Assembly (NCBI RefSeq): GCF_010500215.1
Contig: NZ_JAAGOY010000007.1
Coordinates: forward strand, 434,001-498,000
Source: Aliiroseovarius sp. PrR006
GTDB lineage: Bacteria; Pseudomonadota; Alphaproteobacteria; Rhodobacterales; Rhodobacteraceae
DNA: 64,000 nt
Direction: 5' to 3'
Position numbers and translations under genes: made by a program. Positions 8,444 to 56,736 of the stretch are shown here, piece after piece; positions within the stretch are counted from its first letter, which is position 1, and each line of letters opens with the position of its first letter. The notes beneath the pieces were generated by a model, which saw only the letters and a list, made by a program, of their open reading frames with translations, searched no databases and was not told the origin of the DNA.

Positions 8444-9721
8444 CTACTCGGCAGAAATGGATCGTACCGCCACCTGAACGGCATTTTTTGTTAGCTCAAG
8501 GTCCATCTCGGATATCGCCAGTGACGGATAGAGCTTGCCAGACGACTTGAAGATGCCATGGCGGCGCAGCGTCGCGTTGTAGGTCGCGTTGCGTTGGGGA
8601 TCATCATGCTTGGCAGTTCGGTAATCCCGGCAGGCACCGCTTGTGAAGAAGATGTCGAACAGGGTTTCATCCCCGCAGATCTGATGTGGGACATTCGCCG
8701 CGCTCAGCGCATTGCTTTGCATGTTTTGCAGCGCTTTCCCGATGACCCGCAGGCGGTCATAACTGCCCTCGCGCCGCAGGATCTCCATCGTTTTCAGCCC
8801 CGCGACCGAGGCGACGGGATTCCCCGACAGCGTACCCAGTTGCATCAGCCACTTGTCACCGCCCACGACGGACTTGTCGAAATGCTGCATGATCTCGGCA
8901 CTGGCGCCAAGCGCGGCCAGAGGGAAGCCGCCGCCGATGATTTTGCCCAAGGTGCAGATGTCGGGCGTCACGCCGTAACGCTCCTGCGCGCCGCCATAGG
9001 CCAGCCGGAAGCCCGTGACGATCTCGTCAAAGATCAAAAGGACGCTGTGCTTGTCACACAGATCACGCAGCCCTTGCAGATAGCCCGGGTCGGCGGGAAT
9101 GATCCGTTGCAGGGGCTCGACGATAATGGCAGCGACGTCATTGTGTTCGGTCAACAGCGCTTCGACCGCGGCCAGATCATTGAAGGGCGCGATCAGCATC
9201 TGGTCGGCGACCCCTTGCGGGATGCCCGCACTGTCCGGCACGGCTTGGGGGAAGTTCACACGCGCCTCGGGCGAAAGGCTCATCTGCGCCTCGGCGCTCA
9301 TCCCATGATAGCCGCCTTCGAATTTCAGGATCTTGTCACGCCCGGTATAGGCGCGCGCAAGGCGGATGGCGTACATATCGGCCTCGCCGCCCGAGGCGAC
9401 GAACCGGACCTGTTCGCAGCAGGGCACCGCATCGACGATCGCCTCGGCCAGTTCGATGCCTTTTGCGTTGTTCGCAAAGAAGGTCATGCCCTTGGGGAGC
9501 TGTTCCAGCACCGCCTCCATTACCTCGGGGTGACCATGGCCCAGAAGCATCGGGCCCGAGCCGATCAAATAGTCGATATATTCGTTGCCATCCTCGTCCC
9601 AGACATGGCTGCCTTCCCCACGCGCGATGACGATGCCGGGGTCGAAATTACCAAAGCCGCCAGCGGGTAAGACGGCACGAGCGCGGGCGATCCAATCAGC
9701 TTGAGAGGTCAGTTTTTGCAT
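8444..9721 (-). CDS. Class III PLP aminotransferase (glutamate-1-semialdehyde aminomutase-like)
   Basis: Fold-type I PLP enzyme of 425 residues. It has a cofactor-binding GGEADMYAIRLAR segment (about 111-123), FDEIVTGFR with the pyridine-binding Asp at 232, and the Schiff-base Lys at 260 in CTLGKIIGGGFPLAALG. The latter is the hallmark shared by HemL-like and omega-aminotransferases. It ends a leftward operon with the epimerase, cupin and FAD/GcvT genes, three bases after the epimerase stop. A heme-biosynthetic role is unlikely in this setting. More likely it transaminates an amine or amino-aldehyde intermediate from betaine or hydroxyproline catabolism. The substrate cannot be read from sequence. 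Confidence 0.82.
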   Translation of the reverse strand: MQKLTSQADWIARARAVLPAGGFGNFDPGIVIARGEGSHVWDEDGNEYIDYLIGSGPMLLGHGHPEVMEAVLEQLPKGMTFFANNAKGIELAEAIVDAVPCCEQVRFVASGGEADMYAIRLARAYTGRDKILKFEGGYHGMSAEAQMSLSPEARVNFPQAVPDSAGIPQGVADQMLIAPFNDLAAVEALLTEHNDVAAIIVEPLQRIIPADPGYLQGLRDLCDKHSVLLIFDEIVTGFRLAYGGAQERYGVTPDICTLGKIIGGGFPLAALGASAEIMQHFDKSVVGGDKWLMQLGTLSGNPVASVAGLKTMEILRREGSYDRLRVIGKALQNMQSNALSAANVPHQICGDETLFDIFFTSGACRDYRTAKHDDPQRNATYNATLRRHGIFKSSGKLYPSLAISEMDLELTKNAVQVAVRSISAE

Positions 9722-9724
9722 GGG

Positions 9725-10828
9725 TCACTCCAGTTCAAGAATGGGGGTTCCAAGGATGTCCGGGTCAGGCGTGATGCCAAGCCCTGGACCTTCTGGCGGT
9801 GCGATGCGTCCATCCTTGCGGGTTGGGCAATCAGGCGCAATGCGCGGGCCGACATAGGACGACAGATCACAGGTATTCAGCAGCGCGCCTTGCGGGGTCG
9901 AGGCCGCGAAATGCAGCGACGCGGCGGTGACAATGTCCGATCCCCAAGTGCATTCGGCGCAGATTTCCGCACCCAGATGCACGGTCAGATCGCGCGCGCG
10001 GCGCATGGCGGACAGCCCGCCAAATTTCGACAGTTTCAACGCCACCGCGTCCAGCACACCAAGCTCATGCGCGCGGATAAGCGACGCCTGATCATAGGCG
10101 CCTTCGTCGATTTTCATGGGCAGGCCGGTTGCCTGCCGGACAGCCGCGCAGTCCTCGAGCGTTTTGCAGGGCTGCTCTAGCATCACGTCCAGATGGGCCA
10201 CCGCGCGGCCCGTCCGCGTGGCCTGCAACTTGGTCGCCCCACAGTTCCAGTCGCCATAGACCAAGGGACCGTCCCCCACCGCCTCGCGCACTTTGATCAG
10301 ACGCTCGGCATCGGCCTGCCAGTCGGCGTCTGCACCCAACTTGACCTGAAACTGCCGGATGCCTGTTGCATACGCCTCGCGCGCGATCCGCGCCATGTCG
10401 TCCGGCGCGATACAGGTGATCGAGTGATAAAGCGGCATGTCTGCGCGGGTGCGCCCGCCAAGCAGTGCATAAAGCGGCTGCCCGGTTGCCTTCCCGAACA
10501 GATCCCACAGCGCCATATCGACGATGCTTTTCGCGTGAAAGTGCCCTTGCAGGAACGCATCCAGCTTGCGCATCGGGGCGTCGACCCCAAAGGGCGAGAT
10601 GCCAAGGATCTCGGGCGCCATTTCTTCGACCGCGCTGGGGACACCATCTGCAAATGCGGGCAGGTAATGCGGGATCGGGCAGACTTCGCCCCAGCCTTGC
10701 AGGCCGGTGTCCGTTTCCAGACACAGCACATGGCTTTTGACCGTATCGCAGGTTTTGCCCTCGGCCATGTAATAGGTTTCATGGCTGGTCAGATCGACGG
10801 ACCACAACGAAATGCGAGAGATCTTCAT
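9725..10828 (-). CDS. hpbD: Enolase-superfamily epimerase, probable 4-hydroxyproline betaine 2-epimerase (HpbD-like)
   Basis: Mandelate racemase/muconate lactonizing-type enzyme of 367 residues. The catalytic pair expected for HpbD falls at K163 (FQVKLGAD) and K265 (AVALKLSKFGG). The metal ligands fall at D193 (YGDWN), E218 (LEQP) and D241 (KIDEG), which are the positions I recall for the characterised Pelagibaca enzyme. HpbD interconverts trans-4-hydroxy-L-proline betaine and its D-cis epimer and also accepts proline betaine. Neighbouring demethylases (Rieske and FAD/GcvT) are what a betaine pathway needs. It overlaps the cupin gene by four bases. The alternative within this subgroup is a cis-3-hydroxyproline dehydratase. 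Confidence 0.78.
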   Translation of the reverse strand: MKISRISLWSVDLTSHETYYMAEGKTCDTVKSHVLCLETDTGLQGWGEVCPIPHYLPAFADGVPSAVEEMAPEILGISPFGVDAPMRKLDAFLQGHFHAKSIVDMALWDLFGKATGQPLYALLGGRTRADMPLYHSITCIAPDDMARIAREAYATGIRQFQVKLGADADWQADAERLIKVREAVGDGPLVYGDWNCGATKLQATRTGRAVAHLDVMLEQPCKTLEDCAAVRQATGLPMKIDEGAYDQASLIRAHELGVLDAVALKLSKFGGLSAMRRARDLTVHLGAEICAECTWGSDIVTAASLHFAASTPQGALLNTCDLSSYVGPRIAPDCPTRKDGRIAPPEGPGLGITPDPDILGTPILELE

Positions 10829-11427
10829 GACATGTCCTTTCTATCAGTCAGTTGCGGCCCGGTTTCAAACTGGTCGCGCCAGAAGACCAGACACAGAACC
10901 GGGTCTGCATCCGTGGTCATCGCGTGAGGCTGATTTGAGGCGTGAAACATCGTGTCGCCCGCGCTCAGCCTGCGCGTAGCTTCGCCGGCACGCAGGAACT
11001 CGGCCTGTCCGGCAAGTACAAGATAGAGTTCTTCCGCGGGATGGTGATGCCACGGATAGTGCAGATGTGGCGGCATATAGACTAGCCAAACCCGCAGCTG
11101 ATCCGAGGCAAAACCGCCCTGATCACCGATCAGACAGAAACAACCAAACCGGTCCATGAAGTCATCGCCAATCGCGCTGTCTCGGTAATGCTCAAGCCAA
11201 TGTGCATCCGGGGCAAGCGCGAGCACGGCGTCGCGCAAGGACGAGGCCGCCCCAGACCGCAGCGCTTGGTCGGTTGCCAGCAAATCACGCGGCGGCAAGG
11301 CCCGTGCCGTGACATGTTGTGGCGCAAGATCAGTCGGAAAGGGACTGAATTCCGCAAGGGATGGGGGGGCACCAAAGCAGCGTTCAAGCTCGGATGCTGC
11401 GTGCGCCCAGACCTGTGCTTGTGTCAC
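10825..11427 (-). CDS. dddQ: DddQ-family cupin (DMSP lyase family)
   Basis: Cupin metalloenzyme of 200 residues. The C-terminal cupin carries YPWHHHPAEELY (about 124-135) and FHASNQPHAM (161-170). The His, Glu and Tyr spaced as H129, E133 and Y135, plus H168, match the metal ligand set and catalytic Tyr of DddQ DMSP lyases. DddQ cleaves dimethylsulfoniopropionate to DMS and acrylate. The gene overlaps both neighbours (FAD/GcvT demethylase upstream, HpbD-like epimerase downstream), so it belongs to a betaine operon and not to a dedicated DMSP cluster. No acrylate genes are nearby. DddQ has been reported to have low in vitro activity, so a nitrogen betaine or other substrate is possible. Family call strong, reaction uncertain. 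Confidence 0.83.
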   Translation of the reverse strand: MTQAQVWAHAASELERCFGAPPSLAEFSPFPTDLAPQHVTARALPPRDLLATDQALRSGAASSLRDAVLALAPDAHWLEHYRDSAIGDDFMDRFGCFCLIGDQGGFASDQLRVWLVYMPPHLHYPWHHHPAEELYLVLAGQAEFLRAGEATRRLSAGDTMFHASNQPHAMTTDADPVLCLVFWRDQFETGPQLTDRKDMS

Positions 11428-13868
11428 GCGATCTCCTTTACATCTGCTCTGGGGTTTTCGGAGTTGGGGTCATAGGCGGGTTCGCCCAGCACGCGCGCCG
11501 CGCGGGGGGTGCCGTGGATCACGACCTCAAGCGCCGTGCCGGGGGTGGCGGCGTCGGGCTTGATATAGGCGAAGGCCAGGATCTTCCCGACCGTTGGCCC
11601 GAAAGCGACCGAGGCCGTTGAGCCAACCACCTGCCCGTCCAGCATCACCGCCTCGCCACCGTGGCCGTCTGCCTTGCCGTCCGGCTCGATTTCCAGATAG
11701 GCGCAGACCCACGGCAGGTCCGTGTTCAGCGTCTTGTCCCGACCCAGATAATCCTTATCCGTCCGGGCAAAACGCAGCGCGTCGGCCTCGGCCAGCGTGA
11801 CCTCGTTGGTCAATTCGCTCGCGCCCTTAAAGCCCTTCTCCATCCGCATCGCGTTCATCGCGAAGCTACCGTAATCGGCAATGCCATACGCCTCGCCCGC
11901 AGCCCAAAGCGCCGTGTAGACGTCCAGACAGGCCGCGTGCGGCATGTGGAATTCCCATCCAAGCTCGCCCGCATAGGACATGCGGAAGGCCCAGATCTTA
12001 TGGCCCGCAACGGTGATTTCCTGCGCGGACAGCCAGCGGAAGCCCGCGTTCGACAGATCCGCTTCGGTGCAGGCGGCCAGCACGTCCCGCGACTTTGGCC
12101 CGTTCAGCGACAGGGCGCTCCAATCAGAGGACAAGGCGGTGATCGTCACGTCTTCATCCGCACGCTGTTGGTTCAGATGGTCCAGCAGACGTTGTTCGAA
12201 GAACGCGGCGCAGACCAGATAGAAGCTGCCCTTGCCCATCCGCACAATCGTCGTTTCCAGCTCGATCCGTCCCGCGCGGTTCAGCACGTGGGTCAGCGTA
12301 ATCGAGCCGACCTTCTGCGGCATCCGGTTCGCGGTCAGTCGGTCCAGAAACGCATAGGCATCCGGCCCCTCGACCAGCACCTTGGTGAAGGCGGTCACAT
12401 CCATGATGCCGACGCTTTCGCGCACCGCTTTCACCTCGGCCGCGACCATGTCGTCGACGGGGGAGCGGTTAAAGGAATAGTGGTCGCGCTGCTCGATCCC
12501 CTTGGCGAAGAAGCGCGGGCGTTCAAATCCATAGACCTCTTCATGCACGGCACCCTTGGATTTCAGAAGGTCATACAAGGGCGACGGTTTGATCGGACGC
12601 CCGGCCAAGCGGTTGAAATGCGGGAAGGGGATTTCGTGGCGCAGGCAGTAATCCTCTTCTGCCTTCACCACCTGCCAGTCCTTCGTGGCATAGCTGCCGA
12701 AGCGACGCGGATCAAACTCGCGCATCGAAATATCGGCCGCCCCGTGCACCATCCAGCGCGCCAATTCGCGCGTCAGACCGGGGCCCCAGCCGATGCCGAT
12801 CTGCGTTCCGCAACAGCACCAGTAGTTGCGCACGCCGGGCGCGGGACCAATCAACGGGTTGCCATCTGGCGGGTGGCTGATCGCCCCGTGCACATCGCGC
12901 TGGATGCCCAGTTCAGCAAAGATTGGCATCCGGTTCAGGCTTTCTTCCAGATACGGCATGACGCGATCGTAGTCCGCGTCAAACAGCCAGTTTTCATATT
13001 CCCACGGGCATTCATCGTGCCAGACCGAGTTCGGGTTCTCTTTCTCGTAGATCCCGATCAGGCCCTTCTTCTGCTCCATGCGGATATAGCCCGAGACCTT
13101 TTTGTCGTCGCGAATGACCGGCAACTCGGTGTTGAGGTCTTGGAACTCTGGCACCTCGTCTGTCACGAAATAATGGTGCGTCATTGAGGTCATGGGCAGT
13201 TGCAGCCCTGACCATTCACCCATCTGACGCGCATAGGTGCCGCCTGCGTTGACGACATGCTCGCAGGTGATCGTGCCTTTCTCGGTCTCGACCACCCATT
13301 CGCCGCTGTCGGCCTGCGTGATGTTGGTGGCGCGGCATTGGCGAATGATCCGTACGCCCCTTTGACGAGCCCCCGCCGCCATTGCCATCGTGACGTTGGT
13401 GGGGTCCACGTGCCCGTCATCGGGCGTGTGCAGCGCGCCCAGAACGCCGTCGAGGTTATAGTAGGGATGCAGTTCGGCCACTTTCTCGGGGCCGACCAGT
13501 TCGATGTTGAACCCCAGCGAGCGGCCCACTGACAGCGTATGGCGCAGCCAGTCCATTTCGTCTTCGGTATAGGCCAGACGGAACGACCCGCAGCCGTGCC
13601 AGGTTACAGGCTGGCCTGTTTCGGCCTCCAACCCGCCGGAATAGAGACCGATATTATAGTCCACGCATTTCCCAAGCCCGAAGGACGAGGTCGAATGCGT
13701 GATTTGCCCGGCGGCATGCCATGTGCTGCCCGAGGTCAGCTCGGCCTTTTCGAGCAGCACCGTATCTTCACCCCAGCCTTCATGCCCAAGATGATAGGCC
13801 AGCCCGACGCCCATGACGCCTCCGCCGACGATGACCACGCGTGCGTGGGATGAAAACTCAACAGCCAC
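11424..13868 (-). CDS. FAD-dependent demethylase with GcvT-like folate domain (DMGDH/sarcosine dehydrogenase type)
   Basis: Two-part oxidative N-demethylase of 814 residues. The GTG at 13868 was chosen because AAAAGGA lies seven bases upstream; the open frame runs further but lacks a ribosome site. The N-terminal half is a DAO-type flavin domain with dinucleotide motif VVIVGGGVMGVG and a GSTWHAAGQ segment, which in dimethylglycine dehydrogenases carries the His that binds FAD covalently. The C-terminal half (from about residue 420) is an aminomethyltransferase/GcvT fold that passes the methylene to tetrahydrofolate. It is first in the leftward operon and overlaps the cupin gene by four bases. 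Likely role: demethylating N-methylproline-type intermediates after the Rieske enzyme removes the first methyl. Confidence 0.85.
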   Translation of the reverse strand: MAVEFSSHARVVIVGGGVMGVGLAYHLGHEGWGEDTVLLEKAELTSGSTWHAAGQITHSTSSFGLGKCVDYNIGLYSGGLEAETGQPVTWHGCGSFRLAYTEDEMDWLRHTLSVGRSLGFNIELVGPEKVAELHPYYNLDGVLGALHTPDDGHVDPTNVTMAMAAGARQRGVRIIRQCRATNITQADSGEWVVETEKGTITCEHVVNAGGTYARQMGEWSGLQLPMTSMTHHYFVTDEVPEFQDLNTELPVIRDDKKVSGYIRMEQKKGLIGIYEKENPNSVWHDECPWEYENWLFDADYDRVMPYLEESLNRMPIFAELGIQRDVHGAISHPPDGNPLIGPAPGVRNYWCCCGTQIGIGWGPGLTRELARWMVHGAADISMREFDPRRFGSYATKDWQVVKAEEDYCLRHEIPFPHFNRLAGRPIKPSPLYDLLKSKGAVHEEVYGFERPRFFAKGIEQRDHYSFNRSPVDDMVAAEVKAVRESVGIMDVTAFTKVLVEGPDAYAFLDRLTANRMPQKVGSITLTHVLNRAGRIELETTIVRMGKGSFYLVCAAFFEQRLLDHLNQQRADEDVTITALSSDWSALSLNGPKSRDVLAACTEADLSNAGFRWLSAQEITVAGHKIWAFRMSYAGELGWEFHMPHAACLDVYTALWAAGEAYGIADYGSFAMNAMRMEKGFKGASELTNEVTLAEADALRFARTDKDYLGRDKTLNTDLPWVCAYLEIEPDGKADGHGGEAVMLDGQVVGSTASVAFGPTVGKILAFAYIKPDAATPGTALEVVIHGTPRAARVLGEPAYDPNSENPRADVKEIA

Positions 13869-13935: not shown

Positions 13936-14823
13936 ATGAATGGGACAAATGTATCAAGCACGATTCTCGAGCGTCTGGCCGATGAGCTGACCGAGCTGAC
14001 GCCCGAGGCACGCAAGGCGGCCACGTATGTCTTGGAAAACCCCCGCGATGTGGGGGTGTCGACCGTGCGCGAAATCGCCGAGGCTGCGAATGTGAAACCC
14101 AACACTGTTGTGCGCATGGCGCGGCAAGTGGGATTTGAGGGCTACGAAGATTTCCGCGCGCCCTTCCGCGACGCGATCCGGCGCGGCGCCGCCGATTTCC
14201 CCGACCGCGCGCGCTGGCTTCAGGACATTCGCAAGTCTGACGATCTGGGTGGACTGTATGCCGACATGGTGCAGGACGTGCTGCGTAATGTGGAAGAGAC
14301 CTTTGCGGGCATCTCGACCGACGATCTGAAAGCAGCGGCCGAGGCAATCTGGGCCTCGCGCAACGTGTTCACCCTTGGCGTGGGCGTCAACAATTCGATC
14401 GCGCGCAACTTCACCTATCTTGCCTCGACCGGCATGAAGGAATTCCACGCCATCCCGCGTCCGGGCTCGACCCCTGTCGACGATCTGGCATGGGCAGATG
14501 AAAGCGACGTTTTGATCGCGATCACCTGCAAACCCTACCGGACCGAAGTGGTCAAAGCCGTCGAAATCGCGCGCGAGCAGGGCATGGTCATCGTGGCCCT
14601 ATCCGACAGCCCCGCCAGCCCGATCTTGCGTCTGGCCGATCATGGCTTCGTGGTCTCGGTCGACACGCCGCAATTCTTCCCGTCCTCGGTCAGCATCATC
14701 GCGCTGCTCGAGACGCTCTTGTCCTTCGTCATCGCCGTCGCCAGCGACGAGATCGTCGAGCGGGTCGAGAAATTCCACAACCGTCGCCACCAGTTGGGAC
14801 TGTATCACGAGGAGAAGACATGA
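13936..14823 (+). CDS. MurR/RpiR-family transcriptional regulator
   Basis: Regulator of 295 residues. The N-terminal HTH_6 domain (about 1-78) contains STVREIAEAANVKPNTVVRMARQVGFEGYEDFR. The C-terminal SIS domain (about 125-265) has FTLGVGVNNSIARNFTYLASTGM and a DVLIAITCKPYRTEVVKAVEIA segment, normally a phosphosugar-binding fold. ATG at 13936 has no clear Shine-Dalgarno. Its stop overlaps the Rieske gene start (ATGA at 14820), so regulator and demethylase are co-transcribed. In Rhodobacterales, RpiR proteins of this type often sit beside amino acid or betaine catabolic genes; it probably controls both divergent operons. Confidence 0.88.
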   Translation: MNGTNVSSTILERLADELTELTPEARKAATYVLENPRDVGVSTVREIAEAANVKPNTVVRMARQVGFEGYEDFRAPFRDAIRRGAADFPDRARWLQDIRKSDDLGGLYADMVQDVLRNVEETFAGISTDDLKAAAEAIWASRNVFTLGVGVNNSIARNFTYLASTGMKEFHAIPRPGSTPVDDLAWADESDVLIAITCKPYRTEVVKAVEIAREQGMVIVALSDSPASPILRLADHGFVVSVDTPQFFPSSVSIIALLETLLSFVIAVASDEIVERVEKFHNRRHQLGLYHEEKT

Positions 14824-15914
14824 CCGAACCCATCAGGTCTTTGGCCGCGCGCTATTACACCGACCCCCAGATCTATGCGCAGGAGATGTCCGGCCTGTTG
14901 GCGCGGACGTGGCAGTTCGCGGGCCATGCCAGCCAACTGCCCAATGTCGGCGACTATTTCACCTTCGAGATCGCAGGCCAAAGCCTGTTCTCGATCCGTG
15001 GTCGCGACGAGGTGATCCGCACCTTCTATAACGTCTGCCAACACCGCGCGCATGAGATGGTCACGGGCACCGGAAACACCCGCGTGGTGGTCTGCCCCTA
15101 TCACGCCTGGACCTACGAGCTGACCGGCCATCTGCGGGCGGGTCCGAACATCAAATCCGTTCCGGGCTTTGATCGGTCCGAGATCTGCCTGACCGAAGTC
15201 CGAACCGAGGATTTCCACGGCTTCCTCTTCGTCAATCTGGATGACGACGCCGCCCCGATGGACGAATGGTTCCCCGGCGTGCGCGAGGAAATCGCGGGTT
15301 TCGTGCCGAATGTCGACACGCTTGCCCCGCTGGAATGGGTCGAGGTGCCCGAGAACTGCAATTGGAAGGTTTCGGTCGAGAATTATTCCGAGTGCTACCA
15401 CTGCCCGATGAACCACGCGACCTTCGCCGAGGGCGTGATTAAGCCGGAAACCTATGACATCCAACCGGATGCAGGCGGTGGCTATGTTCTGCGCCACACG
15501 ACCGAATGCCAGTCGATGGAGAAGATGACTTATCCCGTCGATCTCTCGGTGCCTCATGCGGGCGATTATCAAAGCTGGTTCCTGTGGCCCATGTTCTCGT
15601 TCCAATGCTATCCGGGCAACGTGTTGAACACCTATCACTGGCGCGCCGATGGGCCCGAGAACTGCACCGTCTGGCGCGGCTGGTTCACGCCAGACGGCGT
15701 TGAAAGCGACGTGATCCGCGGGCTTGCCGTTCAAGATCGCGAAACCACGGTTGAAGAGGATATCCGGCTGGTGGAAAGTGTGCAGCGCGGGCTGAAGTCA
15801 CGCGGCTATCGCCCCGGCCCTCTGGTGCTGGATCCGGCTTGCGGTGTCAGCTCGGAACACTCGATTGCCGCGTTGCATCAGTGGATGCGCGAGGCCGTGG
15901 ATGGCCCGGAATAG
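14820..15914 (+). CDS. Rieske non-heme iron oxygenase, probable betaine N-demethylase (GbcA/HpbB type)
   Basis: Alpha-type ring-hydroxylating oxygenase of 364 residues that acts as an N-demethylase. The Rieske cluster motif is C73-x-H75 and C92-x2-H95 (CQHRAH and CPYHAW). The mononuclear iron site lies in ENYSECYHCPMNH with H194 and H199. The sequence resembles glycine betaine, stachydrine and hydroxyproline betaine demethylases more than aromatic dioxygenases. It overlaps the RpiR gene by four bases. No separate flavin/ferredoxin reductase gene is visible in the window, so the reductase must be encoded elsewhere. Expected reaction: oxidative removal of one N-methyl of a quaternary betaine, releasing formaldehyde. 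Confidence 0.87.
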   Translation: MTEPIRSLAARYYTDPQIYAQEMSGLLARTWQFAGHASQLPNVGDYFTFEIAGQSLFSIRGRDEVIRTFYNVCQHRAHEMVTGTGNTRVVVCPYHAWTYELTGHLRAGPNIKSVPGFDRSEICLTEVRTEDFHGFLFVNLDDDAAPMDEWFPGVREEIAGFVPNVDTLAPLEWVEVPENCNWKVSVENYSECYHCPMNHATFAEGVIKPETYDIQPDAGGGYVLRHTTECQSMEKMTYPVDLSVPHAGDYQSWFLWPMFSFQCYPGNVLNTYHWRADGPENCTVWRGWFTPDGVESDVIRGLAVQDRETTVEEDIRLVESVQRGLKSRGYRPGPLVLDPACGVSSEHSIAALHQWMREAVDGPE

Positions 15915-15950: not shown

Positions 15951-17396
15951 ATGAAGACCTATTGGCAAAACTACATTGACGGCGCATGGGTCGACGGCGG
16001 CGCGGGGCGGATCGACGTGATCAACCCGGGCACCGGCGAAAAGCTGGCCGAGCAGGCGCTGGCCGATGCGGGCGACGTGGATCGCGCCGTCATGGCCGCA
16101 AAACGCGTGCATCTGTCGGGCGCCTTGTCCGATCTGCGCCCGGTCGAGCGTGGCCGCATGGTGCAGGCGATGGGCCGCTATCTACTGGAGTACATTGACG
16201 AGATCGCCGAGGTTCTGACGCTGGAACAGGGTAAGCCGCTGTGGGAAGCCCGGATCGAGGTCGAGGGCGCGGCACGCTATTTCGAATACTATGGCAATCA
16301 GGCCGAAACCGTCGAAGGCCGCTCGATTCCGCTGGGCAAAGACTATTTCGACTTCACGACCTACGAGCCCTTCGGTGTCTCGGCGCAGATCATCCCGTGG
16401 AACTATCCAGTGGAAATGACCGCGCGGTCTCTGTCGGCCGCATTGGCCACCGGCAACGCCTGCGTGATCAAGACACCGGAACTGACGCCGCTCAGCAACG
16501 CATGGTTCGCAACCGCTGCCGAGACTGTCGGCCTGCCCAAGGGCGCGGTAAATATCCTCTGCGGGCTGGGCCACGAAGCCGGCGCCGCCCTATCGGCGCA
16601 CCCCGAGGTGAACCAGATCGTTTTCACCGGCTCGGTGCCCACCGGCATCACCATTGCAACCGCCGCCGCGAAAAACGTCGTCCCCTGCGTGCTGGAGCTT
16701 GGCGGGAAATCCGCCGCGATCGTGCATAATGACGCCGATCTTGAAGCGTTCGAGAATGACGTCCGCTGGGGCATCTTTTTCAACGCCGGTCAGGTGTGCT
16801 CTGCCATGAGCCGCGTAATCGTGCATGACAGCATCCATGACGAACTGGTAGATCGCATGGTCGGTGTCGCCCAGTCGCTGACCATCAAACCCGGCATCGA
16901 ACAGCCAGAGTTTGGGGCGACGATGGGCGCGATGGTGTCCGACACCCAACGCGATCGCGCCGCGGGCATGATCCAAGCCGCAGAAGCGGAAGGGGCCACC
17001 GTCGCGACCGGTGGCCGCAAGATGAACATCCCCGGCGCGTTTCTGGAACCCTCCATCCTAACGGGCGTCACGCCCGACATGGCGATCGCCAATGTCGAAG
17101 TGTTCGGCCCGGTGCTGTCCGTCCTGAAATTCCGGGACGATAACGAGGCGATCCGCATTGCCAACGGCACGCCCTATGGGCTGGTCGGCGGCGTCTTCAC
17201 AAGCGACCTTGACCGTGCGACATCCGCCGCCCGCCAGTTGCGCGCGGGGCAAGTGTTCGTCAATGAATGGTATGCTGGCGGCGTCGAAACACCCTTCGGC
17301 GGCTACGGCAAATCCGGTTATGGTCGCGAAAAAGGGCGCGAGGCGCTGTGGAACTATGTGCAGACAAAGAATGTCGCAATCAAATTGAAGGACTAA
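15951..17396 (+). CDS. NAD(P)-dependent aldehyde dehydrogenase
   Basis: Classical ALDH-superfamily enzyme of 481 residues, with catalytic Glu at 249 (LELGGKSA) and nucleophile Cys at 283 (NAGQVCSAMSR). The nucleotide-binding FTGSVPTG segment and the PFGGYGKSGYGREKG C-terminal motif are present. It follows the Rieske gene by 36 bases and is followed at once by the carboxymuconolactone decarboxylase-like gene. The overall look is of the betaine/gamma-aminobutyraldehyde dehydrogenase group. In this operon it could oxidise the semialdehyde from opening of a proline-type ring. Substrate not determined. Confidence 0.88.
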   Translation: MKTYWQNYIDGAWVDGGAGRIDVINPGTGEKLAEQALADAGDVDRAVMAAKRVHLSGALSDLRPVERGRMVQAMGRYLLEYIDEIAEVLTLEQGKPLWEARIEVEGAARYFEYYGNQAETVEGRSIPLGKDYFDFTTYEPFGVSAQIIPWNYPVEMTARSLSAALATGNACVIKTPELTPLSNAWFATAAETVGLPKGAVNILCGLGHEAGAALSAHPEVNQIVFTGSVPTGITIATAAAKNVVPCVLELGGKSAAIVHNDADLEAFENDVRWGIFFNAGQVCSAMSRVIVHDSIHDELVDRMVGVAQSLTIKPGIEQPEFGATMGAMVSDTQRDRAAGMIQAAEAEGATVATGGRKMNIPGAFLEPSILTGVTPDMAIANVEVFGPVLSVLKFRDDNEAIRIANGTPYGLVGGVFTSDLDRATSAARQLRAGQVFVNEWYAGGVETPFGGYGKSGYGREKGREALWNYVQTKNVAIKLKD

Positions 17397-17399
17397 GTG

Positions 17400-17780
17400 A
17401 TGAGCACGTTTGACGAAGACCTGTTCCTGAAGGGACTTGAACAGCGCAAGGGCACTTTGGGTGCCGAGTACGTGGAAAAGAACCTTGCTGCGGCAGACGA
17501 TTTCACCCGCCCGTTTCAGGAAGCCATGACCGCATGGTGTTGGGGCTTTGGCTGGGGCGACGACGTGATCGACGCCAAGACCCGGTCGATGATGAACCTG
17601 TCGATGATCGGCGCTTTGGGCAAGATGCACGAATGGGAGCTGCACTGCCGCGGCGCCATCAACAACGGCGTCACCAAGGAAGAGATCCGCGCGATCATCC
17701 ATGTCATCGGGATTTATTGCGGCGTGCCACAGGCACTGGAGTGCTTCCGCATTGCGCGCAAGGTTCTTGAACAGAGGTAA
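17400..17780 (+). CDS. Carboxymuconolactone decarboxylase-family (AhpD-like) protein
   Basis: Small alpha-helical protein of 126 residues. The ATG at 17400 follows AAGGA inside the end of the aldehyde dehydrogenase gene. The core WCWGFGWGDDVIDAKTRSMMNLSMIGALGKMHEWELHCRGAINNGVTKEEIRAIIHVIGIYCGVP is characteristic of the CMD fold, with the conserved Glu and His of the family. It has only single cysteines where peroxidatic AhpD proteins have a CxxC pair, so a decarboxylase or lactonase-like role is more likely than peroxidase. It is last in the rightward betaine operon. Confidence 0.82.
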   Translation: MSTFDEDLFLKGLEQRKGTLGAEYVEKNLAAADDFTRPFQEAMTAWCWGFGWGDDVIDAKTRSMMNLSMIGALGKMHEWELHCRGAINNGVTKEEIRAIIHVIGIYCGVPQALECFRIARKVLEQR

Positions 17781-19236: not shown

Positions 19237-21696
19237 TTATGATTTCACTTTCAGCATTTCCGGATCGAACAATGGCTTCAGAGATGCTTTGGCATTAACG
19301 CGTTCTCCCGCCACTTCGACGTCCCAATTTCCATCGTTCACAATGGCAGCCGTCAGCGGCTCTTCTAGCTCGACAAACCCGATACCGACTGCACCACCAA
19401 GGCTGTGGCCATACCCACCGACTTGCAAATGTCCGACTTCGACACCGTTCAAATAGATGCACTCATTTCCATAAAGAAGTGGCTCTGGCTCTTTGAGAAG
19501 GAACTGCAGCATTCGGGTCTTCGGAACGCCCCGCGCTTTAATTTCAGCAAGCGCATCACGCCCTATGAACCCACCGGGTTTGTCCAGCTTGACCGCAAAT
19601 CCAAGCCCTGCCTCAATCGGATTGTCGGTATTGTCCACGTCCAACCCAAAATCACGATAGGCCTTTTCCAGTCGCAACGAATTGAGGGTCTGCATCCCCG
19701 CATCACGAAGGCCGAACTCTTGCCCTGCCTCCTTCAGCAGATCATAGATCTGCACAGCGGCGTAGGAAGGAACCTGAAGTTCCCAACCAAGCTCTCCGAC
19801 GAATGTAACCCGGAAGGCTTTGACGACCCAGTACCCGACATCGATGTCCTGCCACGTCATGAAGGGAAAGGCTTCGTTCGACATATCTGCCGATGTCACC
19901 TTCTCCATCAGCATGCGCGCTTTCGGACCGTGAATGTTGATCTGGGTGATTGCAGGCGTGAGATCGGTTATCACAACAACCTCACCCTCCTGAATGTGGC
20001 GCTTCATCCGCATCAGAGTATGGCCGTGACTGTTTTCACCTACGACAACCATGAAGCGGTCTTCGGCCAGCCGGGTGACGGTCAGATCGGCCTCGAACCC
20101 ACCTTTCTCGTTGACCCAGGCGGTGTAGACCAGCCGTCCCGGTGCGACATCGACTTCATTGCACGACAGACGGCTCATCAGTGCAAGCGCATCCGGTCCT
20201 TCGACTTGGAACTTGGACATGGTCGACATATCCATGATGATCACATCCTCACGGGCGGCGCGGTGTTCCTCAGCATGCCAATCGAACCAGTTCTGGCGAG
20301 ACCAGCTGTATTCTTCAATCTTCGCCTGCTCAGGAGTCGGCGCGAACCAGTCAGGCATTTCCCAACCATGACCTTCGGTGAAAAAGGCACCATTTGCGGC
20401 AAGTCGATCATGAAGAACAGAACGTTTGAGATCGCGGGCGGTGTGATAGCTTTCATTGTGGAAATGCTGACCGAACATCTTGCCCAGCAATTCAGGCCCG
20501 CGATCGCGGCGGAAAGCACGGGTCGCTTCGTGACGGGTAAAGCGATTGACATTAATGCCGGTCACGTCGATCTGCGGGTGACCGCTGACAATCCATTCTG
20601 CCAGCACTTTCCCAGTACCAGCACCATTCAAAATGCCGAGAGAATTCATTCCGCAGGCCACAAAACAGTTCCGCAACTCGGGCGTTTCACCCACCAGTGG
20701 AGCAAGATCAGGGGTGAAGCTTTCCGGACCACAGAACAGTTTTCGCACGCCTACGTTCAGCGCATCGGGCACACGTGAATAAGCCTTCTCCAGATGCGGT
20801 CCCACGCGATCCCAATCTGGTTCGATCTCGCCAAATGCAAAGTTGTCAGGGATCCCGTCCAGTTTCCACGGTGCCGCCCCCGGCTCGAACAAGCCAAGCA
20901 TCAGCCCCCCGACCTCTTCTCGGTAATAGGTATAGGTCGACGGATCCTCTAGCACCGGCAGGTCGCGGCTAAGACCTTCAATGTTTTCGGTGATCAGATA
21001 GTAATGCTCGGCGGCTTGAAGCGGCAGATTGATCCCCGCCTTAGCCCCCAGCTGGCGTGACCACATGCCTCCGCAGATGACTACATTTTCGGCCGTTAGG
21101 GTCTGCCCGTCAGCAGTGCGCACCCCGGTTGCTGTGCCATTCTTTGCCAAGATTTCCGAGACCGTGACACCTTCGAAAATCTTCGCGCCGCCCATTTTCG
21201 CTCCCTTGGCCAACGACATGGTGACATCAACCGGATTGGCCCGCCCGTCCTCGGGAATATAGAAGCCCGCCAACACATCGCTAAGGTCCCCGATGGGGAA
21301 CAGGTCCGCCGTTTCCTTGGGGGAGATCTCATAGATGTTAATGCCGTGTCTGCGCATGAAAGGCGCAAGTCGGCGCATTTCGTGCATACGTTCTTCGTTG
21401 TTGGCAATTTGCAGGTAACCTACGTCGCGAAATCCTGTCGGCACACCCGTTTCCTGCTCCAGATTGGCATACAGATCACGCCCATGGGTATAAATCTCGC
21501 ATTCGGCTTCCGATGGCAGAAGACCTGCCACGATAAGACCCGCCGCATGCCAGGTCGTGCCCGACGTCAACTGATCACGCTCCAGCACAACAACATCCGT
21601 CATGCCAAGTTTGGTCAGATGGTAGGCCGTGTTGCAGCCAATAGACCCACCCCCAATGATCACAGTCTGCGCGTGTGTGGGAAGCGTCTTGGCCAT
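19237..21696 (-). CDS. FAD-dependent demethylase with GcvT domain (dimethylglycine/sarcosine dehydrogenase-like)
   Basis: Second two-part oxidative demethylase, 819 residues. The ATG at 21696 follows GGAGAA; the frame opens earlier without a ribosome site. The flavin domain starts with TVIIGGGSIGCNTAYHL and has TSGTTWHAAGL, the family's covalent FAD site. The GcvT-like half carries MSRLSCNEVD and the LEKAYRDFGLDVDNTDNPIEAGLGF folate-domain signature. It is a paralogue of the demethylase at 11424-13868, not a recent duplicate, since many motif residues differ. It diverges from a BetI-like TetR gene whose predicted operator lies in the 102-base gap, so induction by a choline- or betaine-derived compound is likely. 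Confidence 0.86.
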   Translation of the reverse strand: MAKTLPTHAQTVIIGGGSIGCNTAYHLTKLGMTDVVVLERDQLTSGTTWHAAGLIVAGLLPSEAECEIYTHGRDLYANLEQETGVPTGFRDVGYLQIANNEERMHEMRRLAPFMRRHGINIYEISPKETADLFPIGDLSDVLAGFYIPEDGRANPVDVTMSLAKGAKMGGAKIFEGVTVSEILAKNGTATGVRTADGQTLTAENVVICGGMWSRQLGAKAGINLPLQAAEHYYLITENIEGLSRDLPVLEDPSTYTYYREEVGGLMLGLFEPGAAPWKLDGIPDNFAFGEIEPDWDRVGPHLEKAYSRVPDALNVGVRKLFCGPESFTPDLAPLVGETPELRNCFVACGMNSLGILNGAGTGKVLAEWIVSGHPQIDVTGINVNRFTRHEATRAFRRDRGPELLGKMFGQHFHNESYHTARDLKRSVLHDRLAANGAFFTEGHGWEMPDWFAPTPEQAKIEEYSWSRQNWFDWHAEEHRAAREDVIIMDMSTMSKFQVEGPDALALMSRLSCNEVDVAPGRLVYTAWVNEKGGFEADLTVTRLAEDRFMVVVGENSHGHTLMRMKRHIQEGEVVVITDLTPAITQINIHGPKARMLMEKVTSADMSNEAFPFMTWQDIDVGYWVVKAFRVTFVGELGWELQVPSYAAVQIYDLLKEAGQEFGLRDAGMQTLNSLRLEKAYRDFGLDVDNTDNPIEAGLGFAVKLDKPGGFIGRDALAEIKARGVPKTRMLQFLLKEPEPLLYGNECIYLNGVEVGHLQVGGYGHSLGGAVGIGFVELEEPLTAAIVNDGNWDVEVAGERVNAKASLKPLFDPEMLKVKS

Positions 21697-21771
21697 CGGG
21701 TTCTCCTTCCAATGCGAATCGCGATTTTGATCAAATTCTACAATTGACCGCCTCCACAAATCAACTTATTG

Positions 21772-22915: not shown

Positions 22916-24415
22916 TTACCCTGTCATAACCGGTAATTTGATCCTTTGTATCTTACCTGAAGGCCCTTTGGGCAGGTCATCAAGTAAATACACTTTATCA
23001 GGGGACTTGAAGGCGCCCAGCCGCTTGATGCAAACCTCGATCAGTTGCTCAGCTGAAACGCTTGACCCGCTTCGCAGCTTCACGGCAGCTTCGACGCGTT
23101 CGCCATAGACCTGACATGGGCGCGCAAACGCTGCGGCTTCGATCACGTCGGGATGCGAATAAAGCGCTTCGTCGATTTCGCGCGGGGCGATGTTTTCGCC
23201 GCCCTTGATGATCAGCTCTTTCAGACGGCCCGTTACGAAGAAATAGCCGTCTTCATCCACGTGTCCGAGGTCACCGGTACGCAGCCATCCGTCGGGCGTG
23301 AACGTGTCGCGCGTGGCCTCGGGGTTCTTCAGGTATTCGCGCATCACATTGGGGCCGCGCACTGCGATCTCGCCTTTGGTGTTGGGCGGCAGGGGCTTTA
23401 GGTCGGCTGACAGAATGCAGGCCTCGTTCCCATAGGCCTTCCCCGGCGACCCGATCTTGCGGACGCCCGGAGGCAAAGGGTTCGACAGGATCTGGGCAGC
23501 GGTTTCCGTCAGTCCCATCGTTTCAACGATCGGCACGTCAAACCGAGTCTCGAATGCGGTCTGAACATCCGGCGCAAGCGCGGATGACGCCGAGCGGCCG
23601 AACCGCAGCCGGGTCCGGGTGTCGCGGGACGGCGTGATGTCGGAATGCAGCAAATGCGAGATGATGGTCGGCACGACCGAGAACCACGTCACCCTTGCCT
23701 CTTCACACTGGTCCCAGAATTTTCGGGCCGAGAACTTCTCGGCCACTGCAAGCGACCCGCCCGAGACCAGCGTGCTGAGAACAGTCACGCACAGCCCGTT
23801 GATGTGATAGATCGGCAGCACGCACAGGCCGCGGTCATGTGATGTCAGCTTGTGGGCCACGGTGGGCGTCCAGCCGCCCGCAAGCAAGCTGGAGTGACTG
23901 TGCACAACCCCCTTCGGCCGACCGGTTGTCCCCGAGGTGTACATGAGCAACGCATCGTCTTCGGGGCCAAGCGGATGCAGCGGTACGGCCTCGTCAGTGC
24001 AGGCGGCTTGGAACCGCGACATGCCTTTGGGGCGCACTCGATCAAACAGCGCGGTTTGCGCGTCGCCAACAAGGGCGATGCGCGCCTCGCAGTGATCCAG
24101 CGCATATCCGATCGCCTCGTCCCCGGCGACCAGGTTGATCACTGTCGCGCGGAACCCGCCGTAAAGCACGCCATACAGGCTTTCAACGGCCGCGCGCCCA
24201 TTTGGCAGCAGGATCGCGACGCTGGCCCCTTTTTCCAACCCCAACGCCGTCAATTGTCCGGCCAACTGTCGCGCCTTGCCCTGCAGGCCCAACCACGTCA
24301 GAGCAGGCCCCCCATCGAAGAACAGATAGGCGTCGCGGTCACCAACACTGGCTGCCCGGTCGTCCAGCCAGTCGCGAACGGTGCCATCAGGGGCGGTATG
24401 ATCGCCCGCCATCAT
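22916..24415 (-). CDS. sauT: AMP-forming acyl-CoA ligase, probable sulfoacetate-CoA ligase (SauT-like)
   Basis: ANL-superfamily enzyme of 499 residues. It has the P-loop LLMYTSGTTGRPKGVVHSH (about residues 154-172), the A5-type GLTETA motif, the hinge motif WLRTGDLGHVDEDGYFFVTGRLKELIIKGGENIAP and the C-terminal Lys region GPSGKIQRIKLP. It overlaps by four bases a gene for a CoA-acylating aldehyde dehydrogenase of the sulfoacetaldehyde type. This is the SauS/SauT pairing known from Cupriavidus necator, in which sulfoacetate is activated to sulfoacetyl-CoA and reduced to sulfoacetaldehyde. No xsc or pta gene is in the window, so substrate assignment is by context only. Confidence 0.7.
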   Translation of the reverse strand: MMAGDHTAPDGTVRDWLDDRAASVGDRDAYLFFDGGPALTWLGLQGKARQLAGQLTALGLEKGASVAILLPNGRAAVESLYGVLYGGFRATVINLVAGDEAIGYALDHCEARIALVGDAQTALFDRVRPKGMSRFQAACTDEAVPLHPLGPEDDALLMYTSGTTGRPKGVVHSHSSLLAGGWTPTVAHKLTSHDRGLCVLPIYHINGLCVTVLSTLVSGGSLAVAEKFSARKFWDQCEEARVTWFSVVPTIISHLLHSDITPSRDTRTRLRFGRSASSALAPDVQTAFETRFDVPIVETMGLTETAAQILSNPLPPGVRKIGSPGKAYGNEACILSADLKPLPPNTKGEIAVRGPNVMREYLKNPEATRDTFTPDGWLRTGDLGHVDEDGYFFVTGRLKELIIKGGENIAPREIDEALYSHPDVIEAAAFARPCQVYGERVEAAVKLRSGSSVSAEQLIEVCIKRLGAFKSPDKVYLLDDLPKGPSGKIQRIKLPVMTG

Positions 24416-25818
24416 TTTGCTGTGTCAGCCCAGTAATCCGCGAAAATTTCCTCGACGGCGGGTTCGACGGGTGGAATTTCGCGGACGATTTTGGTGCTTT
24501 GTATGAAGTGCTTCCAGTGCAGGTTTTCATCAATCGCGTTGCCGCCCCAACTGCCGCACCCCATCGACAGCGAGAACGGCATGCCGTTGTTGAAAGATCC
24601 GCCGGTGGCAAAGGTATGCGCCTGATTGACGATGACCCGGCAGGTCGGCATCGACGCGCCCAGTGCCACGGCGCGCGCATCATCTGCGGTGTGAATACCG
24701 ATAGAGTGCCCTGCCCCTTGATAGTCCAGAATACGCGTTGCGATGGCTTGCGCGTCCTCATAGTCCGTCGCGCGATACAGCGCCGCCACACGGCTGAGTT
24801 TCTCGCCCGAAAGCGGATGATCCGGGCCGATCCCTCGCGTCTCGACGGCAAGGAACTTGGTGTCATCCGGCACCTGACCCGAAAGGCCCAGCGCCTCGAT
24901 CATCTTGTCAGCATCTTGGGCGATGACCTCACGGTTCAGATGACCATCGGGCCAGAGCTTCGCGACAATCTGCGCTTCGTCTTTCACCAACGCCCCACCT
25001 TCGTCGGCGAGTGCCGCAATGAAGTCATCATAGACCGCATCCACAACGATCATCGAGTTTTCGGACGAACAAGAGGTCGCGTTGTCGAACGTCTTGGACG
25101 CGGTAATTTTTTGGGCTGCAGCCTTCAGGTCCGCAGTCTCGTCCACGATCACGGTGACATTGCCCGCGCCAACGGCCACGGCAGGTGTGCCGCAAGTTTG
25201 CGCACGATGGACGTTGTTTTGGCTGCCGGTGCAGATCACGCGGTCGCTCAGTTCCATCATCGCCTGCGTCTTGGCCTTGGAGCCTGGCGCAGGGATCATC
25301 TGAACCAGATCGTGATCCAGTCCCAGCTTGTCGAACTCGGCGTGAATATAGGACAAAAGCAGCTCGCAGCTCGCCACACCTTTGGGTGACGGGGCAACAA
25401 CCACGGCGTTGCCACACTTCAATGCGTTGATGATGTTGTTGGCGGGCGTCGCCGCCGGATTGGTCGAGGGCACCACGGCACCAATCACCCCGATGGGGCG
25501 GGCGATCTCGGTGATGCCGGTGGTTGGATCATCGCTGATGATCCCATGCGTGTTCACGCCTTTGATATCGCGCATCAGGCCAAGAGTCTTGCGGTGGTTC
25601 TTGATGATCTTGTCAGGCACATTGCCAAGTCCGGTCGTTTCGACCGCAAGCTCGGCCAAGGCCTTGTTGCGTGACGGCTCCATGATCGCCCAAGCGGCAG
25701 CTTCGGCCGCGCGGTCATAGCGCGTCTGGTCGGCGCCGGTTTCGTAATCTTTCTGAGCGGCACGCGCACGGGCCACGATCCCGCTTACTTGGGCAATGTC
25801 ATCATGTGCATTCATCAC
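24412..25818 (-). CDS. sauS: CoA-acylating sulfoacetaldehyde dehydrogenase (SauS-like)
   Basis: ALDH-superfamily enzyme of 468 residues of the acylating branch. It has VGAGNVTVIVD, the catalytic Cys within NATSCSSENSMIV (about residue 254), and a C-terminal NQAHTFATGGSFNNGMPFSLSMGCGSWGGNAIDENLHW segment that is common to AdhE-type and sulfoacetaldehyde dehydrogenases. It would reduce sulfoacetyl-CoA to sulfoacetaldehyde and CoA (or the reverse). It is upstream of and overlapping sauT and follows a Tct-type importer whose binding-protein gene ends 60 bases before it, with a strong hairpin in between. Acetaldehyde or succinic semialdehyde as substrate are alternatives. Confidence 0.75.
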   Translation of the reverse strand: MMNAHDDIAQVSGIVARARAAQKDYETGADQTRYDRAAEAAAWAIMEPSRNKALAELAVETTGLGNVPDKIIKNHRKTLGLMRDIKGVNTHGIISDDPTTGITEIARPIGVIGAVVPSTNPAATPANNIINALKCGNAVVVAPSPKGVASCELLLSYIHAEFDKLGLDHDLVQMIPAPGSKAKTQAMMELSDRVICTGSQNNVHRAQTCGTPAVAVGAGNVTVIVDETADLKAAAQKITASKTFDNATSCSSENSMIVVDAVYDDFIAALADEGGALVKDEAQIVAKLWPDGHLNREVIAQDADKMIEALGLSGQVPDDTKFLAVETRGIGPDHPLSGEKLSRVAALYRATDYEDAQAIATRILDYQGAGHSIGIHTADDARAVALGASMPTCRVIVNQAHTFATGGSFNNGMPFSLSMGCGSWGGNAIDENLHWKHFIQSTKIVREIPPVEPAVEEIFADYWADTAK

Positions 25819-25834
25819 GGTAATCCTATTGAAG

Positions 25835-25861
25835 CGGATAGGGCGCCAACCGCCCTATCCG
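25835..25861 (-). other. Intercistronic hairpin between binding-protein and dehydrogenase genes
   Basis: A perfect 11-bp inverted repeat (CGGATAGGGCG at 25835-25845, CGCCCTATCCG at 25851-25861) with a 5-base loop sits between the TctC-like gene and sauS. No T-run follows in the direction of transcription. It probably protects the upstream binding-protein mRNA or attenuates downstream expression. Confidence 0.65.
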
Positions 25862-25878
25862 TTGGTGCTGCTCGGGTC

Positions 25879-26841
25879 TCAAAGACCTGCCAGAAGCTCT
25901 TGCAGAGTTTCCTGACGGGCTGCCCACATCGCCTGAACCTCTTCACGGGTCATGATGTGCATGGGTGATCCACCGGCTTTCATTTTTCCGGCCACGCGTG
26001 AGTTTTTGAACATCTCGGGCACGGATGCGGCCAGTTTGTCGATCACCTCTTGCGGGGTGCCTTTGGGAACCATCACACCGCGGAAATTCACGCTGGCGTT
26101 GTCAATGTCATATCCCTGTTCCTTCAACGTCGGGACATCTGGCAGGAACTCGTTGCGTTCCAGATCGAACACGCCAAGGATTTTGACGTTGCCAGCTTCC
26201 TGCGCGCGGAAAGCATCGGACAAGTTGTTCACACCGCCCATAACGTCACCCGCAATCACAGCTTTCATGGCTGCCGCACCGCCTCCTTTGGTCGGGATGT
26301 AGGCCATTTTCACGCCTGCGGCTTTCTCAAGCTGAAGGGCTGCAATGTGGTGCCCCACGAACAGGCCAGCACCCGAGAAGGTCAGCTTGCCCGGATTTTC
26401 CTTGGCGTAGTTCACAACGTCTTCCATCGAGTTCATCGGGCTGTCTTTGCCTACAACGAAGACCGCGGGGTCTGCGCCCCAGTTGGCGATGGGTTCAAAG
26501 CTGTCTGCCGAATACTCGACGCCGCCCTTGATTGACTGCGCGATGAAGTGCGGAATGTTATAGGCACCCAGAGTATAGCCATCGGCCTCGGCTTGGGTTG
26601 CAAGCCAGTTCCAACCGACGCGGCCACCCGCACCCGGTTTGTTGATGATTGCGATGGGCATCCCCAGCGCGTCTTCGTTGCCCGCTGTCATTGTGACGAT
26701 GCGCGCTTGGAAATCGGTGGCACCGCCCGCGCCATAGCTTACCATCATCATGATGGGACGTTCAGGATAGTCCTCGGCGGTGGCTGCGCCTCCGGTCAGG
26801 GACATCAGCGCCAGCGCGGCGCCTGCCAATAGGTGTTTCAT
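25879..26841 (-). CDS. Tripartite tricarboxylate transporter substrate-binding protein (TctC family)
   Basis: Periplasmic solute-binding protein of 320 residues. ATG at 26841 is preceded by GGGAGGA; the longer open frame is not needed. Signal peptide MKHLLAGAALALMSLTGGAATA. The mature protein starts EDYPERPIMMMVSYGAGGATD, the classical TctC/Bug N-terminus, and continues with INKPGAGGRVG and a GLFVGHHIAALQLEKAAG ligand-loop region. It is in an operon with TctA- and TctB-type membrane subunits upstream and sauS/sauT downstream. The likely ligand is therefore sulfoacetate or a related C2 sulfonate, in place of the SauU permease of Cupriavidus. Confidence 0.87.
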   Translation of the reverse strand: MKHLLAGAALALMSLTGGAATAEDYPERPIMMMVSYGAGGATDFQARIVTMTAGNEDALGMPIAIINKPGAGGRVGWNWLATQAEADGYTLGAYNIPHFIAQSIKGGVEYSADSFEPIANWGADPAVFVVGKDSPMNSMEDVVNYAKENPGKLTFSGAGLFVGHHIAALQLEKAAGVKMAYIPTKGGGAAAMKAVIAGDVMGGVNNLSDAFRAQEAGNVKILGVFDLERNEFLPDVPTLKEQGYDIDNASVNFRGVMVPKGTPQEVIDKLAASVPEMFKNSRVAGKMKAGGSPMHIMTREEVQAMWAARQETLQELLAGL

Positions 26842-26888
26842 TTCATATCCTCCCTTGGATGTGCATTTGCCGCTTTGCACGGTCTCAT

Positions 26889-28900: not shown

Positions 28901-28913
28901 TGTAGGCTAAGAG

Positions 28914-28941
28914 ATGAAAATAGTTTTGCAAATGTTTTCAT
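28914..28941. promoter_or_regulatory. LacI-type operator-like palindrome
   Basis: In the divergent gap between tctA and the LacI-family gene, ATGAAAA (28914-28920) pairs with TTTTCAT (28935-28941). TTTGCAAA (28925-28932), a small palindrome with the CG-poor centre often seen in LacI sites, lies inside. A TTGACA box at 28894-28899 could be the -35 of the regulator gene. Confidence 0.5.
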
Positions 28942-28966
28942 TTTTGACCCAACACAGGCCAAATTT

Positions 28967-51904: not shown

Positions 51905-52055
51905 ATTGATCTCCTGTGATTTCACAAAGGGTTTTGCCCATTGTTGGACATCCAAGATCAGGGTCCAGACGCGCCCCATTGTTTTTGGACCGATTGGTAA
52001 AAAAACATTGTAAACGACGCATTTGCAACGGGTTTGCCTGTTGATTGAGCAGAGC

Positions 52056-52751: not shown

Positions 52752-52754
52752 AGT

Positions 52755-54724: not shown

Positions 54725-54727
54725 GGT

Positions 54728-56692: not shown

Positions 56693-56702
56693 GCCTCAAG
56701 GC

Positions 56703-56726: not shown

Positions 56727-56736
56727 ACAGTTGCGA

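Follow-up and report, generated by a model that had tools for sequence, protein, structure and literature searches.

A DddQ-type cupin in a putative nitrogen-betaine cluster of Roseobacters: DMSP cleavage or an accessory beta-lyase?

In ocean surveys, DddQ counts as a source of dimethyl sulfide (DMS), a climate-active gas. The locus described here raises the question of whether a DddQ-type gene that lies inside an operon of betaine-demethylation type serves the cleavage of DMSP or the use of a nitrogen betaine. Should the native substrate be a nitrogen betaine, dddQ gene counts would give too high a figure for DMSP cleavage, and a marine pathway for nitrogen osmolytes would emerge of which no description has been met so far. 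The sequence analysed, hereafter the window, is a stretch of 64,000 nucleotides from Aliiroseovarius sp. PrR006. Its relevant features are listed in Table 1.

Table 1. Genes at the DddQ-type locus, with positions in the window.
Feature	Position	Strand	Remarks
Class III aminotransferase, glutamate-1-semialdehyde-aminomutase-like	8444..9721	-	378 bits against an NCBIfam cut-off of 398
Core MLE-subgroup enolase-superfamily enzyme (MLE), Lys268/Cys320 type	9725..10828	-	367 aa; closest PDB structure 4mgg
DddQ-type cupin	10825..11427	-	200 aa; GTG start; DLL family; same clade as R. pomeroyi DddQ
FAD/GcvT demethylase, dimethylglycine-dehydrogenase-like	11424..13868	-	Start placed at 13868 on the basis of an AAGGA-like ribosome-binding site and the N-termini of orthologues
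RpiR-family regulator, divergent	13936..14823	+	Start inferred; cluster anchor
Rieske oxygenase	14820..15914	+	Best PDB match carnitine monooxygenase 6y8j, 210 bits; 3vca, 118 bits
Aldehyde dehydrogenase (ALDH), betaine-aldehyde-dehydrogenase-like	15951..17396	+	418 bits against a cut-off of 668.6
Carboxymuconolactone-decarboxylase-family protein (CMD)	17397..17780	+	

The cupin and its operon

The open reading frames on the minus strand follow the order FAD/GcvT, cupin, MLE and class III aminotransferase, and the RpiR, Rieske, ALDH and CMD genes are divergent from this operon. Reading of the junctions bore out the four-base overlaps reported in the initial annotation, with GTGA shared by the FAD/GcvT and cupin genes (11427-11424) and ATGA by the cupin and MLE genes (10828-10825). 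A gap of 3 nt separates the MLE stop from the ATG of the aminotransferase. The genes are separate open reading frames that share these 4 bp only, so that the word "fused", which that annotation had used, was merely a manner of speaking. Its description of an operon of betaine-demethylation type was upheld by the best PDB matches of the two putative demethylases, which were carnitine monooxygenase (CntA, 6Y8J) for the Rieske protein and dimethylglycine dehydrogenase (5L46, 488 bits) for the FAD/GcvT protein. Among the matches listed, neither protein reached an NCBIfam cut-off, and the profile for the glycine-betaine monooxygenase GbcA (NF058607) gave 159 bits on the window against a cut-off of 670.

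The cupin scored 77.6 bits against the Pfam profile PF16867 (DMSP_lyase; gathering score 27), which places it in the DLL family. Against the PDB it matched 5cu1 (180 bits, 46.5% identity), 4b29 (123 bits, 42.5%) and 4la2 (116 bits, 41.0%), and we take 5CU1 and 4B29 to be the DddQs of R. pomeroyi and R. nubinhibens, respectively. The equivalents of Tyr120, His123, His125, Glu129, Tyr131, His163 and Trp178 of RlDddQ are all kept, and correspond to Tyr124, His127, His129, Glu133, Tyr135, His168 and Trp183 of the window cupin when counted from alignment positions. The Tyr/His/His/Glu/Tyr/His active-site set by which DLL members are recognised is therefore complete, and the metal set that had been noted initially is confirmed. 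A tree was built from 111 distinct relatives and three DddQ references, after removal of duplicates and of rows scoring below 60 bits or shorter than 120 residues. Tyr120, His123, Glu129, Tyr131 and His163 (RlDddQ numbering) were invariant in all 111 cupin rows, His125 was found in 110 and Trp178 in 108. The window cupin falls into a clade of 37 rows together with R. pomeroyi DddQ (support 98/90), nested within a group of 56 rows named Q1; the DddQs of R. nubinhibens and R. lacuscaerulensis fall into groups of 14 and 24 rows. Family and catalytic residues are thus common to the window cupin and all three of these DddQs, and the clade to the window cupin and that of R. pomeroyi. Several tandem DddQ pairs (e.g. 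L158, L171, L023, L073) consist of a Q1 copy and a copy from another group, which argues that these pairs are old paralogues. A cupin search of the window's own genome (3.22 Mb; the window lies on contig C7) returned a single match, the window cupin itself, and plasmid records contained two distant DddQ relatives (E 1e-5). The window cupin is hence a member of the DddQ family, and may cleave DMSP to DMS and acrylate.

The neighbouring MLE had initially been labelled an HpbD-like betaine epimerase on the strength of K163, D193, E218, D241 and K265. These residues occur at exactly those numbers. They are, however, common to all 164 related MLE rows examined (matches covering fewer than 250 query residues and identical rows having been dropped) and so are not diagnostic of HpbD. 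Residues 268 and 320 divide the rows into types, with Lys/Cys, the type of the window, in 71 of the 164, Arg/Trp in 52 (also in 3EEZ, 2QDD and 4E8G), Asn/Thr in 28 (also in 2RDX), Lys/Leu in nine (also in 2PCE) and other types in four. We take 4E8G to be HpbD of P. denitrificans, the Trp320 of which presumably holds the quaternary ammonium, and 2PMQ to be an HpbD/proline-betaine racemase. The window MLE has the MLE subgroup and the K/D/E/D/K catalytic set in common with both, but carries Lys268/Cys320 in place of the Arg/Trp of 4E8G. Moreover, it is less similar to 4E8G (196 bits, 34.3% identity) and 2PMQ (184 bits) than to 4MGG (278 bits, 41.2% identity), presumably the Labrenzia cis-3-hydroxyproline dehydratase, with which it has Lys268 and Asp321 in common and the Thr320 of which is replaced by Cys. 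On the NCBIfam profile NF043002 it scored 327 bits, below the cut-off of 500. The HpbD label was therefore rejected on residues 268/320 and on similarity. A cis-3-hydroxyproline dehydratase of the MLE subclass is described from Labrenzia in the available part of PMC5144071. Arg268/Trp320 paralogues were found in larger clusters; the cluster of the window holds none.

Further genes of note lie elsewhere in the window. A second FAD/GcvT dimethylglycine-dehydrogenase-like gene is found at 19237-21759, and 22916-30007 holds genes for an AMP-dependent ligase, an aldehyde dehydrogenase, a tripartite-tricarboxylate-type transporter and a LacI protein. In genome G001, relatives of the latter genes (52-83% identity) come directly after the MLE gene of the RpiR-marked cluster (L122 9835-16900). 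Urea ABC transporter-like genes, followed by urease-like genes, were recognised by eye from translations at 50900-63775.

Distribution of the cluster and of DddQ-type genes

The context of the cupin was surveyed in 394 genomes of the family (393 genera, one genome per genus except one). With the cupin as query, 95 of the 394 genomes gave a match at E 1e-10 or better. Matches of at least 85 bits by tblastn were classed as DddQ-grade; 49 stretches were picked from the better matches, of which 48 (from 46 genomes) passed. L103, below the 85-bit limit, G136, at a contig end, and second copies per stretch were dropped from this count. L001 and L028-L056, which merely duplicate parts of other stretches in short form, entered none of the neighbourhood counts. 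An MLE gene lay within 10 kb of the cupin in 22 of the 48 stretches and within 1.5 kb in 21. The circumstance named in the initial annotation as speaking against its reading, that dddQ would rarely lie beside hpbD-type genes elsewhere, thus does not hold in its broad form. At least one cluster gene was present in 31 stretches, and 17 had none. Oxidoreductase X, a medium-chain oxidoreductase of 360 aa (closest PDB structure 4j6f), was present in 23 stretches, and the other cluster genes in 20 (FAD/GcvT), 19 (aminotransferase), 18 (Rieske), 18 (RpiR), 17 (CMD) and 10 (ALDH); these counts are low because some stretches end at contig ends.

An RpiR orthologue of at least 64% identity, taken as the marker of the cluster, was found in 58 of the 394 genomes, the window's own included, and a DddQ-family gene in 19 of the 58 RpiR-marked stretches. 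The cluster was complete from FAD/GcvT to aminotransferase in 43 cases, a set unenriched for DddQ (a separate set of 63 clusters is enriched by the way in which it was fetched). DddQ was present in 18 of the 43, L128 being scored by hand, and absent from 25, which shows it to be dispensable for the core pathway. Where present, the first DddQ gene lay between FAD/GcvT and the first MLE in all 17 complete clusters checked. L128, set aside here, is the exception, with a DddQ copy between MLEs, and L068 has a second copy further down. On the RpiR tree, the best estimate for changes in DddQ presence was 12, with at least five on well-supported branches. Shuffled labels are hardly more scattered (mean of shuffles 14.1; a value as low in 77 of 500), so that DddQ has the character of an optional cassette with repeated gain or loss. 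The closest relative of the window in this tree, L117 of genome G086 (RpiR 93% identical), has a cluster without DddQ, and G373, the second genome from the genus of the window, lacks the cupin as well as the RpiR gene. Two tandem DddQ genes were observed in G086 some 115 kb from its DddQ-free cluster on the same contig (L065 9134-10248).

A tie between DddQ and extra MLE types was also considered. It appeared significant in plain counts (p 0.006 and 0.001), which was not borne out by the five supported independent pairs, too few for the purpose. As a separate observation, a gene pair encoding an arylmalonate-decarboxylase-like protein (PF17645) and a Sulfotransfer_5 protein occurs near the Rieske gene in 15 of the 63 clusters of the enriched set (e.g. 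L012 2701-4150).

DddQ genes also have recurrent neighbours outside the full cluster. X adjoins the cupin in five stretches without an MLE gene (L060, L078, L094, L099, L101), and in some other stretches without MLE there is only a CMD or ALDH gene beside the cupin. In one genome, G141, the part with Rieske, RpiR, FAD and MLE genes (L133) lies far from X and DddQ, which are accompanied by a CMD gene (L060).

Two of the stretches concern DddQs that have been crystallised. L157 encodes a protein 100% identical to a fragment of R. lacuscaerulensis DddQ (166 aa) and L158 one 100% identical to a fragment of R. nubinhibens DddQ (167 aa). Both lie in the cluster, with Rieske, RpiR, FAD/GcvT, X, one or two DddQ, two or four MLE and aminotransferase genes, in contrast to the cluster of the window, which has one MLE and no X. 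Of the extra MLEs of L158, two are 100% identical to PDB 2RDX and 2QDD and a third matches 2PCE over all 376 residues; we know of no function assigned to these three structures. A single R. nubinhibens locus therefore joins the solved DddQ 4B29 with three solved MLEs, and their being neighbours makes substrate screening directly feasible. Among 20 stretches picked by hand, a non-random sample that includes L157 and L158, 15 had an MLE match, and in 14 of these a full-length MLE frame lay no more than 5 kb from the cupin. A search of the genera around G394, G086 and G073 did not turn up the DddQ locus of R. pomeroyi.

Some of this is already known. Going by the title of Lei et al. (2018), the cupin family holds other enzymes of unknown function. 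Close linkage of an MDR028 gene to dddQ has been described for R. pomeroyi (SPO1593) and for R. nubinhibens (ISM_14095), and in the latter the gene lies beside adjacent dddQ1 and dddQ2, as in L158; ISM_14095 is most likely oxidoreductase X. The available part of that source (PMC3338564) leaves Rieske, FAD/GcvT, MLE and aminotransferase genes unmentioned. In the open-licence literature, no description of the fuller cluster around dddQ was found among the matches listed, nor anything on dddQ together with mandelate racemase. A search for dddQ with proline betaine met dddQ only within a reference of a review, in the text accessible, and the accessible portions of papers with R. pomeroyi dddQ locus tags held nothing on its neighbourhood among the matches listed.

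Candidate roles of the cupin

The betaine-type context suggests that the main job of DddQ may be other than DMSP cleavage. With a probability of roughly 0.5, we consider the cupin to be a metal-dependent beta-lyase of the DddQ type and an optional accessory to a Roseobacter cluster that is conserved and handles nitrogen betaines; on this view the cleavage of DMSP takes second place or proceeds in parallel. What is observed is the gene content and order, the catalytic residues, the repeated presence and absence of the gene at a position that is mostly constant, and the occurrence of two crystallised DddQs in this context. The observation made in the initial annotation is confirmed, and its interpretation partly supported. 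In such a pathway the Rieske oxygenase and the dimethylglycine-dehydrogenase-like enzyme would strip N-methyl groups, the MLE enzymes would act on the alpha-carbon of an amino acid or betaine, as epimerase or dehydratase, and the aminotransferase, ALDH and CMD would act downstream. The metal of the cupin would hold the substrate carboxylate, abstraction of the alpha-proton would fall to Tyr135, the counterpart of Tyr131, and the beta leaving group would be expelled. With DMSP this would be dimethyl sulfide; in the suspected native reaction an amine or hydroxyl would leave from a betaine or from a demethylation intermediate.

The main competitor, which is possible although we lean away from it, is that the cupin is a true DMSP lyase that has come to be regulated with a general osmolyte operon, with sulfonium and ammonium zwitterions handled side by side. 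DddQ is associated with the RpiR marker at an odds ratio of 11.6, and of 7.3 in dmdA-positive and 6.9 (p 0.06) in dmdA-negative genomes, kinship being ignored throughout, which favours nitrogen betaines. The CMD, ALDH and X genes that accompany DddQ in several stretches outside the full cluster also speak against this reading, as to our knowledge none of them has a place in acrylate use. Published data, in the parts of the sources available, point the same way. Linkage of dddQ to acuI-like genes was absent in all seven strains then known, and ISM_14095, unlike AcuI, gave no rescue of acrylate sensitivity (PMC3338564). Moreover, RlDddQ has a high Km of 22 mM (PMC5395565), and induction in R. 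pomeroyi was modest, with dddP and dddQ up 1-4 fold versus 40-fold for dddW (PMC4437653).

On the other side, dmdA is present in 40 of 48 DddQ-grade genomes, the window's own included (odds ratio 8.4, kinship ignored). The DddQ active site is identical in cluster, partial-cluster and non-cluster contexts, and the optional nature of DddQ within the cluster is what would be expected of an added substrate. Furthermore, mutation of dddQ lowers DMS production, by 97% in R. pomeroyi and by 20% in R. nubinhibens, and the gene is described as induced by DMSP, in the available text of PMC5395565. The complete clusters without DddQ, the DddQ stretches without any cluster gene and the lack of both genes in G373 likewise count against an accessory of the nitrogen-betaine cluster. 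Taken together, the nitrogen-betaine reading is slightly ahead of the DMSP reading, and the two are not mutually exclusive.

It appears unlikely that the primary activity of the DddQ enzymes in general is that of a quaternary-ammonium beta-lyase releasing trimethylamine or another amine from a betaine, with DMSP lyase activity a by-product of a sulfonium analogue fitting the same site. DddQ genes beside Tmm, TMAO demethylase or GmaS-type genes would be a direct trace of such a role. By the thresholds used, a gene of the GcvT/dimethylglycine-dehydrogenase-like, Rieske or Tmm kind lies within 5 kb in seven of the 30 non-cluster DddQ-grade rows (L026 being a weak case). L013 makes an eighth, with GmaS-type genes and truncated Tmm genes next to DddQ (L013 1-3181), and the remaining 22 have neither kind of neighbour. 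In L015 and L067, which are from one genome, and in L062 the cupin adjoins a trimethylamine monooxygenase gene, with a TMAO demethylase gene within 1 kb; in L015 the names of both were confirmed above the NCBIfam cut-off. Co-occurrence of DddQ and Tmm is nevertheless weak (16 of 48 DddQ genomes, odds ratio 2.2, p 0.02 uncorrected) and the window's own genome gave no match to Tmm. Tmm is also given as a DMS-oxidising enzyme in a table of PMC8520302, as far as the available part goes. As an observation in its own right, DddQ-type genes thus occur in trimethylamine-degradation loci (Tmm with Tdm and/or a GmaS-type gene) of three genomes, at L015 8650-13721/L067, L062 6239-11330 and L013 1-3181.

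The title of the initial annotation implied a pathway for proline betaine or hydroxyproline betaine with an HpbD-type epimerase beside DddQ, which now seems very unlikely. The MLE subgroup with its catalytic residues, the presence of Rieske and FAD/GcvT demethylases and the many sister clusters with Arg268/Trp320 MLEs would all suit such a pathway. However, the sole MLE of the window lacks this residue pair and is nearer 4mgg than 4e8g. The Rieske protein, moreover, is nearer carnitine monooxygenase than 3vca, which we take to be stachydrine demethylase, and among the ten window proteins scanned no proline-specific downstream gene was recognised. Finally, a chance insertion of the cupin into an operon with which it shares no function would fit its absence from the cluster of L117 and the 17 stretches without cluster genes, but is hardly credible given the near-constant placement of the first DddQ gene, the repeated state changes on the RpiR tree, and the association of DddQ with CMD, ALDH or X genes where the full cluster is lacking.
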